Of a stretch of 64,000 nucleotides of DNA, positions 1 through 30,660 are shown one piece after another. Under the pieces are notes generated by a model. The model had not been told where the DNA came from. It did no database searches and worked only from the letters and a program-made list of their open reading frames with translations. This stretch comes from an uncultured Octadecabacter sp. GTDB lineage: Bacteria; Pseudomonadota; Alphaproteobacteria; Rhodobacterales; Rhodobacteraceae. The stretch covers positions 1-64,000 of the forward strand of contig CALAGN010000041.1 of NCBI GenBank assembly GCA_937891785.1, written 5' to 3'. Every line of letters starts with the position of its first letter. Position 1 is the stretch's first letter. The position numbers and the translations under genes are program-made.

Positions 1-296
1 TATAGTCTTGAGAGATTGCTGGAATATCCGCCCATCCAAGATGTTGTTGCCTCACGAAAGGCCTTCCTATCATCCTCTGAAGCTGTTCCGGATAGGACTT
101 GGTAGGTGAATCTTCTCTGTGCTTCTAGTCGGCGATCAAGAGCTACTGAGATAGCCTTGATTGCTTCCTTTGCTTCGGATCTTTCGTTTTCCTTAAGTCC
201 CTCGAGACTCCGATGCCGCCAAGTTCTTTGTTGAATTGTTGCGCCAATAATCGCGGCAAGCAGCCCTAGAAATAGAGTTGAAAAGAAACTTCCCAA
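1..296 (-). CDS. Partial membrane-anchored hypothetical protein, TTG start
   Basis: An uninterrupted minus-strand frame runs from a TTG at 296 off the left edge of the window (98 codons visible, C-terminus missing). GAGGAG lies six bases before the TTG, which decides this start. The protein opens with a short hydrophobic segment (residues about 4-21, LFLGLLAAIIGATI) followed by a charged, helix-prone stretch rich in Glu, Lys and Arg. That suggests a single N-terminal membrane anchor with a cytoplasmic helical region. Base composition is clearly more A+T-rich than the rest of the window, as expected for accessory or recently acquired DNA. No family is recognised. The non-ATG start and truncation make it easy to miss. 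Confidence 0.6.
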   Translation of the reverse strand, partial: MGSFFSTLFLGLLAAIIGATIQQRTWRHRSLEGLKENERSEAKEAIKAISVALDRRLEAQRRFTYQVLSGTASEDDRKAFREATTSWMGGYSSNLSRL

Positions 297-382
297 GGCT
301 GACTCCTCACTTTGTTATGGTCCAATGTTATGTTGGGTATTCTGTCGAAACAACCGTTATCATTTCGGTTGTGAAGAAGCCC

Positions 383-805
383 TCACTCCTCCACCTTCCC
401 CCGCAACGCTTTTACATCCCCACGCTGCTTCTTCGCGTCCACCCGTTTCCGCTTCTGATTAACCGACACCCGCGTTTTCACCCGCCGCTTTGGCACGAAC
501 AGCGCTTGCACAATCAACTCCGCCAGCCGTTCCCGTGCCAGTTCTCGGTTGCGGGCTTGCGAGCGGGTGTCTTGCACAAAGATCACCACCGCGCCCTCTT
601 TGGTCCAGCGTTGTCCGGCCAGTCGGCGCAGCCGCGTTTTCACGGGGCCTGTCAGGGCAGGCGAGCGTTCGGCCTCGAACCGTAGCTCCACCGCCGTGGA
701 CACTTTGTTTACGTTCTGACCACCGGGGCCAGAGGCGCGCGCAAAGCTTTCGCTCAACCCCCACGCGGCGATTGTGACGTTATCGTTGATCCGTAAATCG
801 TCCAT
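383..805 (-). CDS. arfB: Alternative ribosome-rescue factor / peptidyl-tRNA hydrolase ArfB
   Basis: A 140-residue class-I release-factor-like protein with the catalytic GGQ at residues 28-30 (context ASGPGGQNVNKVST) and a basic Lys/Arg-rich C-terminal tail. In the ArfB/YaeJ/ICT1 family this tail enters the empty mRNA channel of stalled ribosomes while GGQ hydrolyses the peptidyl-tRNA. Codon-recognition domains of RF1 and RF2 are absent, and the length fits the family. The ATG lies inside the third copy of an 11-bp tandem repeat (802-834), so its ribosome-binding region is repeat-derived (GGAAAGCGT before ATG). A terminator lies just upstream, so it probably has its own promoter. Confidence 0.93.
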   Translation of the reverse strand: MDDLRINDNVTIAAWGLSESFARASGPGGQNVNKVSTAVELRFEAERSPALTGPVKTRLRRLAGQRWTKEGAVVIFVQDTRSQARNRELARERLAELIVQALFVPKRRVKTRVSVNQKRKRVDAKKQRGDVKALRGKVEE

Positions 806-834
806 ACGCTTTCCATACGCTTTCCATACGCTTT
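802..834. repeat. Three tandem copies of 11-bp CCATACGCTTT
   Basis: Units at 802-812, 813-823 and 824-834 are identical, followed by a broken fourth copy (CCGTATAGC). The arfB start codon lies in the first unit as read on the plus strand. The same unit occurs three times, with two or so substitutions, at 59633-59665. The spacing of about one helical turn per unit would suit cooperative binding of a protein on one DNA face. Confidence 0.85.
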
Positions 835-843
835 CCGTATAGC

Positions 844-877
844 AAAAAGGGCCGCCCCGGCGATGGGACGGCCCTTT
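844..877 (-). terminator. Intrinsic terminator of the small minus-strand transcript
   Basis: AAAGGGCCG at 846-854 and CGGCCCTTT at 869-877 pair, extended by CCC/GGG across one mismatch, around a six-base loop. Read on the minus strand the stem ends in a run of five T. It closes the short unit that starts near 1030 and separates it from arfB. Confidence 0.8.
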
Positions 878-1030
878 CGAGTTCGCGGAGGTGGCGGTCG
901 GTTAGAACGCATCCACCTGAGATATTACATGGCCAAAGGCTGCTCTAGCCACGCACCTCCCAAGCTGTCCCGACACACTTCTCCAATCTCTCTAATGACA
1001 CTGGATCACCTCCTCTCGTTGTTTCGCCTA
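846..1030 (-). ncRNA. Candidate small RNA carrying a 16S-tail-complementary motif
   Basis: The interval between the transporter gene (ends 1081) and arfB holds a complete short unit on the minus strand: a -35-like TTGACA at 1063-1058, a plausible start near 1030, a 12-base perfect complement of the 16S rRNA tail at 1014-1003, a mini-ORF and an intrinsic terminator. The transcript would be about 180 nt. It could be a regulatory sRNA, a leader-peptide mRNA or a 30S-binding decoy. This is inferred from arrangement only. Confidence 0.4.
945..1001 (-). CDS. 18-residue mini-ORF with perfect extended Shine-Dalgarno
   Basis: GTG at 1001 opens an 18-codon frame that ends in TAG at 945. Two bases upstream of the GTG sits AGGAGGTGATCC (1014-1003), complementary over 12 of 12 bases to the 3' tail of bacterial 16S rRNA. 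A TTGACA lies 45 bases upstream and an intrinsic terminator 70 bases downstream. The peptide (N-terminus VSLERLEKCVG) matches no family I recognise. The extended Shine-Dalgarno may itself be the functional part, with the peptide incidental. Confidence 0.4.
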   Translation of the reverse strand: MSLERLEKCVGTAWEVRG

Positions 1031-1034
1031 AGGG

Positions 1035-1063
1035 CAGAAAAGCACAGATTTGGTATATGTCAA
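1035..1063 (-). promoter_or_regulatory. Promoter-like TTGACA / TTTCTG for the small transcript
   Basis: TTGACA at 1063-1058 matches the sigma-70 -35 consensus. A weak -10 (TTTCTG, 1040-1035) follows after 17 bases. Alphaproteobacterial -10 boxes are often poorly conserved. Confidence 0.4.
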
Positions 1064-1080
1064 AACAAAAATCGCAATCC

Positions 1081-1707
1081 CTAGGTTGGGCGTGACATCA
1101 GGCGCACGACAATCAGGCGGAACGGGATCAGGGCGAGCAGGGCAATCGCCAGCTTTACGCCCCAATCAGCCACGGCCAGCGTGACCCAAAGCGGGGCCTC
1201 TGGGCCAACAAGCAAAAAGGGCGCCGGCCCCTGCGCCCAAGTTATCTGCGCGTCCGCCGTCGCGCCAAACGACAGTAACCCACTGAAAGCAATGGTAAAA
1301 AACAGCGCCGTGTCGACAGTGGACCCGATCAACGTCGATGCCAGCGGAGCCCGCCACCACGCCCCGTCCCGCAGCCTTGTAAAGATCGCGATGTCCAAGG
1401 TTTGCGCCACAAGAAACGCCGTCGCCGAGCCGATCGCAACACGCAAAGCGACCGCCGGACCGAATTCAAGCATGACCTGGCTGCCGATCAGCGAACAGAT
1501 GATACCAATAATAAATCCAACAAAAACAACGCGCCGCGCCGGACCAACGCCATAAACGCGATTCATGATGTCCGTCACAAGGAAGGCAAACGGATAGGTA
1601 AACGCCCCCCACGTCAGCAGCCCATCAAGGATCAGGAATTGCACGAGGATATTGGAGGCCACGACAACGGCGGCCATGGCGATCACGCCAGGTAGGATGC
1701 GGGTCAT
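1081..1707 (-). CDS. yhhQ: Queuosine precursor transporter, YhhQ/VUT family
   Basis: A 208-residue integral membrane protein with about six hydrophobic helices and the YhhQ/COG1738 pattern ASNILVQF near the N-terminus, FAFLVTDIMNRVYG around residues 41-54 and the conserved SLIGSQ/STLIGSTVDT segments. E. coli YhhQ imports the queuosine precursors preQ0 and preQ1 across the inner membrane for tRNA modification. It is read in the same direction as mepA, with a 90-base gap, so it may be the last gene of the thioesterase-MFS-mepA-yhhQ run. The substrate is inferred from the family. Confidence 0.88.
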   Translation of the reverse strand: MTRILPGVIAMAAVVVASNILVQFLILDGLLTWGAFTYPFAFLVTDIMNRVYGVGPARRVVFVGFIIGIICSLIGSQVMLEFGPAVALRVAIGSATAFLVAQTLDIAIFTRLRDGAWWRAPLASTLIGSTVDTALFFTIAFSGLLSFGATADAQITWAQGPAPFLLVGPEAPLWVTLAVADWGVKLAIALLALIPFRLIVVRLMSRPT

Positions 1708-1797
1708 TTCATATTCCGTTTTGACAAGGGTGCGGCGACTTGGCCCCGTTACGGGACGCCTTCATCTAACGCCGCAAGACCCTTTGGTCAATCCGCG

Positions 1798-2724
1798 TTA
1801 TTCGGACTCCAGCACACCCGTGCACTGCACCGGAAGCCGCGCCATTGTCACTTCTCGGCGGGGCGTCGCGGGGGCCGCATTCGGGTCTGGCGGTGGCGGG
1901 TTGAGGATGTTGTCCACCCAGGTTTGGGCGTCGGCACAACCATCGCCACCGGGCGGGGGCGCCTGATCTTCGCAAGTGCGATCTCCCGGCGGACACGATA
2001 GCCGAACGTGGAAGTGATAGTGGTGACCATGCCATGGCCGGATCCTATTCAGCCACGCACGATCACCAGTAGCCCAGTTACACATCGCGACCTTAGCACC
2101 GGGAAACACGAAAATACGCGCGGTGCGTGGATCGCTTGCTGCGGCACGGATAACCTCCATGTGCTGGGTGGTCCAACGGTCGTTCGTATAAGCCCCAGCC
2201 GAGCGACGCATCGAGATTGATGATAACTCCTCGCGCTCACCACGTGTCAGGTTTAAACGGTTTGGCGGTAGCATCCAGATATCGGCATCAAGGCCTGTCT
2301 GATGGCTGGCATGGCCAGTTAGCATCGGCCCGCCACGCGGCTGCGACATGTCACCAACATAAAGACCGTCCCAACCGGGCAGCGTCGCGGCAAAGCGCGA
2401 CAGATCCTGCACAAAATCAACAGTAGTTGGATGCGCCCAGTTGCGGTTGCGCGACAGGCGCATGGCTTGCCACGTTGCGCCGGTCTCGGGCAGTTGCACC
2501 GCACCCGCCTGACAGCCACTCGCATACCCACCGTGCGATTCAGGCGTCTGCGCCGAAGGAGTCGACATCGCGCCAAACAGAGCCTTGGCCGCGCGGGTAT
2601 CGCCCGCGTTCTGTGTTGAAACTGTTGCAGCACCGGCGCGACTGGCCGGTGCTGCGATTTCAGTCCCGCGGCAAGCCGCGAGTGCCAAAACAAGCGATAG
2701 GGAAAATCCTAATCGGCGGACCAT
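1798..2724 (-). CDS. mepA: Penicillin-insensitive murein endopeptidase MepA, lipoprotein-like
   Basis: A 308-residue peptidase M74 homologue. The zinc-site motif HASHQTGLDADIWML and the late HYHFHVRL motif are present; in MepA such histidines and the aspartate bind zinc for cleavage of D-alanyl-meso-diaminopimelyl cross-links in peptidoglycan. The N-terminus is hydrophobic and has a lipobox-like LAAC at residues 15-18, so the protein may be lipid-anchored in the periplasm. The C-terminal extension is rich in Pro and Cys. Its ATG overlaps the end of the upstream MFS gene by 16 bases, which suggests translational coupling. Confidence 0.9.
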   Translation of the reverse strand: MVRRLGFSLSLVLALAACRGTEIAAPASRAGAATVSTQNAGDTRAAKALFGAMSTPSAQTPESHGGYASGCQAGAVQLPETGATWQAMRLSRNRNWAHPTTVDFVQDLSRFAATLPGWDGLYVGDMSQPRGGPMLTGHASHQTGLDADIWMLPPNRLNLTRGEREELSSISMRRSAGAYTNDRWTTQHMEVIRAAASDPRTARIFVFPGAKVAMCNWATGDRAWLNRIRPWHGHHYHFHVRLSCPPGDRTCEDQAPPPGGDGCADAQTWVDNILNPPPPDPNAAPATPRREVTMARLPVQCTGVLESE

Positions 2725-4088
2725 TCTGCGCGATCTCCGTCTTTGTTAACCCATCTTAGCAGTAATAATCCGATCAGGAAAAGAAAGATCACCGGCAAGA
2801 ACCCAAGCTGGTTATTCCCCGTCAGAAAAGTGAACAGCGTAATAAAGGCAGGTGCGAGAAATGCGGTCGCTTTGCCGGTTAACGCAAAAAGGCCAAATGC
2901 TTCGGCAGGGCGATCAGGGTGGGTGTGCCGCACCATCATCGAACGGCTTGCAGAATAAACCGCACCACCTGCGCCGCCAATGCAGGCACCGCAGACATAA
3001 AAGATGATATCAGGCAGGTTTGATCCCTGGGCAAGCGGGAAACCGAACAGTGCCTCGCGGGACATGCCGACAACCGTGATGCTGACAATGATCAGCACCC
3101 ATACCGCGACACGGATCACGGGCTTTGGCCCAAATCGCTGATCAGCGAGGCCTGAAAGCCACGTTACAATCGCGGCGGCAATTGCAGCGACTATACCGAA
3201 GACGCCGATCTGGATGGTCTGCCAATCAAGGACCAGTGCCGCATAGACACCACCAAAGGCATAGAGCGCGTTCAGTGCGTCGCGGTAGAACATCGACCCG
3301 ACCAGGAAATTCAGCAGGCTTTTTCGTTCGCGGACACTTTTGAGGGTTGCCCAAAGATCCCGGGCAACATCACCAAGCCTTGTCGACTTGCCCCCAAGAT
3401 GCGGATCGTCCCGCACCCACAAAAAGAATGGGATCATAAAGACAGCATACCATATCGCGATTAAGGGCCCAACAGAACGGGTGCCTTCTCGCATTTCGGG
3501 GTCCAGACCGAACAACGGAGGGTTTCCAAGCAAGGTTACGCCGGCGTCGCTCTCGGCTAATAAAAGGAGCATCACAAAAAGAGAGACAACTCCGCCCCAA
3601 TACCCGAACGCGGCACCAGACCCGCTGATGCGACCGATGTCTTCCTTTTTGCCAAGCGACGGGAGGATCGCATTCACAAAGTTAAGCCCGCTTTCCGCAG
3701 CGACGAAGCCGACGTAAAAAATCACCAGTATCCATATGATATTACTGCCATCTGGCATCAGGCCCCATAGCATCCATGTCGCAGCGATGTAGATGATCGA
3801 AAAGAACGCGATCCAAGGCATCTTGCGCCCGGAATTGTCGGCAAATGCCCCAAGGAAGGGGGCCGAAAACGCGATGACTAATCCTGCGACGGTTTGACCT
3901 GCAGACCACATGCCTTGGGCTTGGGCCTTGGCTGTTGATTCTTCTAGGCCTGTGCCGAGATAGTATTCGGCTGCTACGGCGGCGAAATAGGGGCCAAATA
4001 TGAATGTAAGTCCAAGCGTATAGAAGGGCTGCGATGCCCAATCAAAGGCCATCCATCCCCATATGCGTTTCTTGCTTATCGTTGCCAT
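2709..4088 (-). CDS. MFS permease of the UMF1 / Atg22-like family
   Basis: A 459-residue protein with about 12 hydrophobic helices. The N-terminal WGWMAFDWASQPFYTLGLTF segment and the later SRSMMVRHTHPDRPAEAFGLFAL segment are hallmarks of the UMF1 (COG2270) branch of the major facilitator superfamily. I chose the ATG at 4088 over an upstream in-frame start at 4145 because GGGGA precedes it and the extra 19 residues do not look like family sequence. The substrate is unknown; yeast Atg22 exports amino acids from the vacuole. It overlaps mepA and lies 66 bases downstream of a thioesterase gene. Confidence 0.85.
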   Translation of the reverse strand: MATISKKRIWGWMAFDWASQPFYTLGLTFIFGPYFAAVAAEYYLGTGLEESTAKAQAQGMWSAGQTVAGLVIAFSAPFLGAFADNSGRKMPWIAFFSIIYIAATWMLWGLMPDGSNIIWILVIFYVGFVAAESGLNFVNAILPSLGKKEDIGRISGSGAAFGYWGGVVSLFVMLLLLAESDAGVTLLGNPPLFGLDPEMREGTRSVGPLIAIWYAVFMIPFFLWVRDDPHLGGKSTRLGDVARDLWATLKSVRERKSLLNFLVGSMFYRDALNALYAFGGVYAALVLDWQTIQIGVFGIVAAIAAAIVTWLSGLADQRFGPKPVIRVAVWVLIIVSITVVGMSREALFGFPLAQGSNLPDIIFYVCGACIGGAGGAVYSASRSMMVRHTHPDRPAEAFGLFALTGKATAFLAPAFITLFTFLTGNNQLGFLPVIFLFLIGLLLLRWVNKDGDRAEWSAD

Positions 4089-30536: not shown

Positions 30537-30660
30537 TGCTGGTATCCTCACAGATATGCGCCCTTCGTTGGGGAAGGGTGTCCCAATGACGCTGATAGGC
30601 CCATTGCTGCGGCGCGGCAAGATGAAAAAAGGACCAAATGCGACGGAGTGAACTGCTTTT
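30537..30660 (-). promoter_or_regulatory. serC 5' leader with two hairpins, serC-motif candidate
   Basis: Between the divergent promoter region and the serC start lie a hairpin at 30604-30620 (seven pairs including one wobble) and a second at 30561-30578 (CCCTTC/GAAGGG, six-base loop), then the ribosome-binding site. A structured RNA named the serC motif has been described upstream of serC in alphaproteobacteria. Position and layout agree, but I cannot compare to its covariance model here. Confidence 0.4.

Follow-up and report, generated by a model that had tools for sequence, protein, structure and literature searches.

The unit at positions 1063-844 on the minus strand of the window, the 64,000-nucleotide stretch of DNA analysed here, is by its identity and anatomy very probably a small-RNA gene related to the Caulobacter RNA CC2171. 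Judged from sequence comparison, it represents, within the Rhodobacteraceae, a small-RNA gene that occurs in many families of the Alphaproteobacteria. The features conserved across lineages are a strong match to the tail of the 16S rRNA, a start codon, a stop, a fold and a terminator. The best overall explanation is that the unit encodes a mini-mRNA on which 30S subunits dock and which would switch between a closed and a ribosome-bound form; the probability of this reading was put at roughly 0.4. The arrangement described in the first-pass annotation was recovered on the minus strand, where TTGACA, AGGAGGTGATCC, the GTG ORF, its TAG stop and the terminator were all located. The features of the unit and of its two neighbours are the following.

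1081-1707, minus strand: gene of a yhhQ-type transporter (Vut_1, PF02592; Pfam 1.4e-27), ending just upstream of the promoter
1058-1063, minus strand: -35-like box TTGACA, the putative own promoter, read from the sequence, within the yhhQ-arfB gap
1001-1017, minus strand: complement of the 16S rRNA tail, GAGAGGAGGTGATCCAG, 17 nt with one G-U at 1015
1013-1007, minus strand: Shine-Dalgarno (SD) sequence GGAGGTG, inside the anti-16S block
982-1005, minus strand: hairpin P2 (1005-997 with 990-982), from alifold, with the start codon in its 5' arm
945-1001, minus strand: mini-ORF VSLERLEKCVGTAWEVRG, GTG at 1001-999, 18 codons, TAG at 947-945
894-976, minus strand: helix P3 (976-970 with 901-894), enclosing P4 and the inner hairpin
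967-958 with 923-914, minus strand: helix P4, inside P3
949-943 with 938-932, minus strand: inner hairpin, inside P3
887-893, minus strand: CACCUCC, a copy of the 16S anti-Shine-Dalgarno, forming helix P1 with GGAGGUG at 1013-1007
844-876, minus strand: intrinsic terminator, stem 876-865 with 858-847, U-run 848-844
383-805, minus strand: arfB (RF-1 domain, PF00472; Pfam 6.7e-21), the next gene downstream

The only clear Rfam match of the unit was to the Caulobacter sRNA CC2171 (RF01867), which aligned over its full length with 36.9 bits and an E value of 1.7e-6 (321 bases). Since the gathering score of 75 bits was not reached, the unit is regarded as a relative of RF01867 and is not filed as a member. 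The families ftsZ-DE, RefA9, Atu_C4, suhB, RcsR1 and P34 were rejected as identities, with E values of only 0.36 to 8.7. All 15 homologous loci tested matched CC2171 below the gathering score, and 5 of 8 loci of other subtypes matched it too. When whole genomes were searched with RF01867, the window locus was the only match in its own genome at E ≤ 1e-5 (E 4.3e-6). At this threshold 46 of 289 class genomes, with 32 family codes, were positive, 9 of the 289 above the gathering score, and the one positive among 14 controls was Caulobacter vibrioides. The window's sole Rfam match above threshold was a serC leader RNA (RF00517) at 30537-30588 on the minus strand, with 64.6 bits.

The likeness to CC2171 lies in the 5' block AACAA..GAAAGGAGGUGAUCCAGUGUC followed by an NTG triplet, in the similar length, in the terminal hairpin and in the full-length cmscan alignment. 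The window reads AACAACGAGAGGAGGTGATCCAGTGTC in this block, with one base different (1015, a G-U with the 16S tail), and the 3' intrinsic terminator of CC2171 is also present in the window unit. The interior, in contrast, aligned poorly, and the CAUUGUC:GACAAUG stem of CC2171 is absent as such. The CC2171 score comes mainly from the 5' block and the terminator, so that the interior offers little evidence of homology. In 44 distinct Rhodobacterales-type pairs, with varying registers and uncorrected for kinship, the stretch behind the start codon scored 10.43 for complementarity to the pre-terminator stretch of its own locus and 9.80 (sd 0.19) for swapped partners, 1 of 2000 swaps being as high. 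Loci L028, L219 and L235 look intermediate in sequence. The unit likely works as CC2171 does.

A blastn search with the unit yielded homologs in many genomes of the same family, and these had the promoter box, the anti-16S block, the ORF, interior motifs and the terminator in common. At E ≤ 0.001 a covariance model of 53 homologs matched 111 of the 120 genomes of the family and had no match in 9. Near-full-length copies (178 nt or more, at least 40 bits) were present in 104 of the 120 genomes, at least 22 of which had also supplied the model; the other matches were short pieces. One strong copy per genome was found in the searched genomes. The alignment of 53 homologs (A1) was drawn from 62 Rhodobacterales-type loci, that is, 56 synteny loci together with L005, L011, L014, L015, L018 and L021. 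Loci L006, L016, L059, L069, L075, L087, L109, L130 and L169 were omitted as duplicates or because of misplaced terminators, L075 for brevity of the list. A length criterion reduced the SHC group from 51 sequences to 39, and the groups that were folded did not include the 10 'misc' loci. The check in relatives proposed by the first-pass annotation thus came out positively: the anti-16S block, the mini-ORF and the stems were kept, and compensatory changes were present.

The same annotation had called the unit self-contained, which is supported. Because no sigma-70 promoter passed the consensus scan on either strand of window positions 1-3000, the promoter call rests on the conservation of its -35 box. 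Exact TTGAC was found 54-50 nt before GGAGG in 31 of the 53 Rhodobacterales-type loci, and a looser -35-like box in 47. In Rhodobacter-like loci such as L087 and L170 the -35 region upstream of the unit resembles an inverted repeat with imperfections, TTGACAAACACAAAATCTGTGTCA, and might be an operator. The terminator stem had 95.2% of its cells paired, with changes on both sides in 11 of 12 pairs. A terminator-like hairpin followed the ORF in 158 of 174 loci, 6 of these 158 being weak, and the search found none in the other 16.

The central feature of the unit is the match to the 16S tail. The 12-base complement reported earlier, AGGAGGTGATCC, is present at 1014-1003 and is the sole exact copy in the 64 kb, but the pairing really spans 17 nt with one G-U. 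The segment GAGAGGAGGTGATCCAG (1017-1001) pairs over these 17 nt with CTGGATCACCTCCTTTC, the 16S end of the same-family genome L199, whose 16S tail reads CTGGATCACCTCCTTTCTAAGG. Real 16S ends were obtained from two genomes, L191 and the same-family L199. The 16S gene of the own genome was not found, a search with RF00177 giving no match there, and the pattern GGTTGGATCACCTCC located the 16S tail in 0 of 7 genomes. The tail sequence was present in 16 of 20 genomes, nearly always on the complementary strand of the element itself, and the 16S end used as a query matched many plasmid records. Most relatives carry GAAAGGAGGTGATCCAG where the window has GAGAGGAGGTGATCCAG; the window version of the core AAAGGAGGTG is AGAGGAGGTG.

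The duplex of the block with the 16S tail was calculated at about -30 to -32 kcal/mol (32.3 returned in the window unit), versus -13.1 kcal/mol for the best tail duplex among 41 mechanically listed ORFs of at least 200 amino acids in the window, with several starts allowed. In the own genome (3.32 Mb) the first 11 bases of the motif, AGGAGGTGATC, are present three times, against once for the reversed pattern, and neither of the other two copies has the rest of the arrangement. The match thus exceeds what chance would give.

The core AAAGGAGGTG, with an NTG start next to it, was retained in all 40 divergent relatives fetched. These were 20 of the weakest matches to the family model and 20 matches to the CC2171 model, picked by hand and not by the exact pattern; as both search models weigh the block itself, its constancy is partly due to selection of the sample. 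The GATCC part of the block varied among the 40, so pairing with the full tail, beyond a strong SD, is not strictly required. The exact 17-base pattern GGAGGTGATCCANTGTC was found in 37 of 385 class genomes, one copy each, and its reversed control in none. A scan of named genomes gave at least 118 stretches with this pattern; among those listed, 105 were from Alphaproteobacteria, 4 from Gammaproteobacteria and 9 without a class rank. The non-alphaproteobacterial records L112, L124 and L146 look like chance matches. An ordinary strong ribosome-binding site before a leader peptide, with an incidental long match, would have a precedent in the extended SD pairing described for S. aureus in the available text of PMC13009471. 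Retention of the core in 40/40 relatives and the 37/385 count against a control of 0 speak against an incidental match, and this reading is very improbable. Binding of 30S subunits is a prediction from the pairing.

The mini-ORF is probably translated, which is supported by a start base that is never C, a length fixed at 18 codons and the alternation of three stops. The base before TG in 159 distinct loci was G in 124, A in 28, T in 7 and C in 0, and the start base in 39 of the 40 divergent relatives was A in 21, G in 17 and T in 1. All 53 aligned homologs had exactly 18 codons; 51 began with GTG and 2 with ATG, and they ended with TAG (24), TGA (19) or TAA (10) and never with TGG. Rfam types CC2171 as 'Gene; sRNA', whereas these start and stop codons argue for translation. 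Of the roles left open in the first-pass annotation, a translated micropeptide is thus favoured by sequence evolution as far as translation is concerned.

Whether the peptide itself matters depends on the lineage. In the Rhodobacterales type the omega-like ratio was 0.62 in frame versus 1.01 and 1.00 in the other frames; the peptide of this type may thus be under some constraint, which would favour a peptide role there. Outside this type, as tested with ORFs of fewer than 40 codons, the ratio was 1.07 in frame versus 1.01 and 0.72 (175 pairs), so no constraint on the peptide was apparent and a peptide role at the level of the class was judged unlikely. The unit could be the mRNA of a functional micropeptide, with the RNA fold only regulating its synthesis, and the selected appearance of the start and stop codons, the constant length and the low ratio in the Rhodobacterales type all speak for it. 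The peptides of other lineages, however, were unrelated in sequence and length (14 to 33 codons in 101 ORFs under 40 codons), and the near-invariant codons of the Rhodobacterales type (TTG 48/52, GAG 52/52) are what a constraint on the RNA would give. This explanation is unlikely. In L032, L105, L135 and L147, the last three from Azospirillum, the ORF behind this 5' block is 56-59 codons long and begins like a signal peptide; the block may drive a small secreted protein in these loci.

The consensus fold of the 53 homologs contains 48 pairs with 89.5% of cells paired. Changes on both sides of a pair occurred in 147 cells versus 59.6 in shuffles (0/500), and sliding the partners gave much lower values, controls that leave some effect of relatedness among the homologs. 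P3 had both-sided changes in 4 of its 6 pairs and 93.1% of cells paired. In P4, the weakest helix, all 8 pairs had such changes and 72.0% of cells were paired, and in the inner hairpin 5 of 6 pairs had them, with 75.2-83.5% of cells paired. Hairpin P2, with a G-G mismatch 999/988 in the window, had 95.2% of cells paired, mostly invariant or changed on one side. P1 had 97.0% of cells paired and 0 pairs changed on both sides; since its SD side is invariant, the support for this helix is one-sided.

Unlike in CC2171, the SD of the window lineage is buried by CACCUCC. The mean P(unpaired) of the SD was 0.05 in 45 of the 53 Rhodobacterales-type RNAs versus 0.29 with the downstream sequence shuffled, and it was below 0.2 in 93% of these 45 RNAs versus 34% of the shuffled controls. 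The sequence C[AG][CT]CTCC was found 3' of the stop in 47 of the 53 sequences. The variants CAUCUCC and CGCCUCC keep the pairing, and it is partly lost in L058 and L066. In the 11 Bradyrhizobium loci, grouped by their common peptide KRCHLAG, P(unpaired) was 0.10 versus 0.24 in the control, and the partner was a segment within the ORF. In such loci, for example L086 (7234-7403), the SD GAGGTGATCCAG, the in-ORF TCACCTCGCTGGGATC and a later CCAGCGAG could pair in different combinations, in a switch-like manner. Values near the controls were obtained for the 39 CC2171-like (0.35 versus 0.27) and the 25 SSE RNAs (0.32 versus 0.29). A closed/open switch is therefore not general, because sequestration exceeded the control only in the Rhodobacterales and Bradyrhizobium forms.

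The same CACCUCC could act in trans as an anti-Shine-Dalgarno seed on target mRNAs, which would make the unit an antisense sRNA. Its frequency 3' of the ORF in the Rhodobacterales type fits this, and seeds of this kind are reported for the Caulobacter RNAs SisA-D in the available text of PMC12559287. Elsewhere, however, C[AG][CT]CTCC followed the ORF in 0 of 39 CC2171-like, 1 of 25 SSE and 0 of 11 Bradyrhizobium sequences. In the Rhodobacterales type it is buried together with the SD: CACCUCC is predicted to be paired (P1 97.0%, mean P(unpaired) of the SD 0.05), so that it would lack the accessible C-rich seed expected of such an RNA. An antisense role, which would also leave the start and stop codons unexplained, is improbable.

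The neighbours of the unit differ between the types. Of 56 Rhodobacterales-type loci, 53 had yhhQ upstream and 47 had arfB downstream on the same strand. In 33 of these 47 loci the arfB match started no more than 60 nt from the hairpin, and in 43 no more than 133 nt; L001 and L059 represent the same locus in these counts, and a few hairpins are wrongly placed. Because of this closeness arfB may depend on read-through. In the Rhodobacterales the unit might then act on arfB as a 5' leader or attenuator: with ribosomes in short supply the RNA would stay closed, and arfB expression would be set by termination or read-through at 876-844; the short distances would leave little room for a separate promoter. 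On the other hand, 9 of the 56 loci showed no arfB downstream, and in 8 of these the flank was about 1.5 kb or longer; in 4 loci arfB lay 0.6-1 kb away. P1 and the terminator, moreover, do not overlap in the consensus fold, which also speaks against an anti-terminator, and no structures excluding the terminator were evident in this fold. Among 112 loci of other types yhhQ was found in 0 and arfB downstream in 0, two having arfB upstream on the opposite strand. Of the 81 named loci among them, as judged with a rough composition-based ORF heuristic, 44 had the next called ORF on the same strand, 32 had a convergent one and 5 had none. The leader reading is accordingly quite unlikely. A class-wide tie to arfB or yhhQ was ruled out by synteny, and the link to arfB that the first-pass annotation had found tempting lacks support as a general explanation.

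No other fixed neighbour emerged, since 20 scanned of 30 picked neighbour proteins had mixed or unmatched functions. The unit lies upstream of an RNase R gene in L071, L073, L133 and L175 (Bosea/Allobosea) and in L089 (Methylobacterium), and it is divergent from prfC/RF3 in L114, L132, L142 and L155 (Microvirga); these genes were identified with NCBIfam for L071 (RNase R) and L114 (RF3) and for the others via their blastp cluster. With arfB, translation-related neighbours thus occur in three lineages, which may be chance. Between the terminator and arfB of the window, at 803-836, are three head-to-tail copies of the 11-base ATACGCTTTCC (plus strand). On the minus strand each copy supplies an ATG, three in all; the listed arfB start is the last of these, and the repeat may influence the choice of the arfB start.

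Docking of 30S subunits on a mini-mRNA, the preferred reading, would proceed as follows. In the Rhodobacterales form the resting RNA would be closed, because CACCUCC holds GGAGGUG and P2 holds the start codon. The real 16S tail would then displace the CACCUCC copy. On average about 11 kcal/mol is needed to open the block (13.9 in the window unit), and the duplex with the tail returns about 31, so displacement appears possible and binding of the tail should win, kinetics allowing. Association with the 30S subunit would depend on GAAAGGAGG. The captured subunit would initiate, traverse the short ORF, unfold the inner helices and depart at the stop. The output would be docking or initiation on the RNA itself, which could soak up, sense or stabilise 30S subunits or the 16S 3' end. 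Since the peptides of other lineages are unconstrained, the conserved property is probably docking or initiation and not the peptide or control of arfB. That 30S docking is the selected function can be proposed only tentatively on these sequence comparisons. It is more doubtful that, throughout the class, the RNA has been selected to pair with the 16S 3' tail and so gauges or buffers free 30S subunits, with a copy of the tail closing it in the Rhodobacterales and Bradyrhizobium and the ORF mainly releasing the docked subunit.

Known RNAs resemble the unit in part. The rnTrpL RNA ends at an attenuator terminator. Like the unit, rnTrpL/peTrpL of S. meliloti is a short alphaproteobacterial RNA with a tiny translated ORF; in the available text of PMC10117765, however, it is leaderless and tied to trpE, whereas the unit has an extreme SD and is without a fixed downstream gene. 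The extended-SD sites of S. aureus share the extended pairing near a start codon, but the accessible part of PMC13009471 presents them as a general feature of initiation, and here one dedicated RNA has up to 17 pairs. According to PMC4117421, translation occurs for two of the ncRNAs described earlier in Caulobacter. A docking mechanism of this kind is not named in the available portions of PMC4117421, PMC12559287, PMC5082802, PMC2873474, PMC4809877 and PMC10117765, and among the titles listed in the literature searches none dealt with this RNA or named an RNA with such a mode of action.

What Rfam describes as a Caulobacter sRNA is apparently a single branch of a far larger family (46/289 class genomes), the most constant element of which is the 16S-tail match with the start codon and not an antisense seed. 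At the least, the results suggest that the CC2171-related sRNA family be re-annotated as carrying a small, probably translated ORF. If 30S docking is true, the RNA would be a natural probe of the free ribosome supply in alphaproteobacteria.
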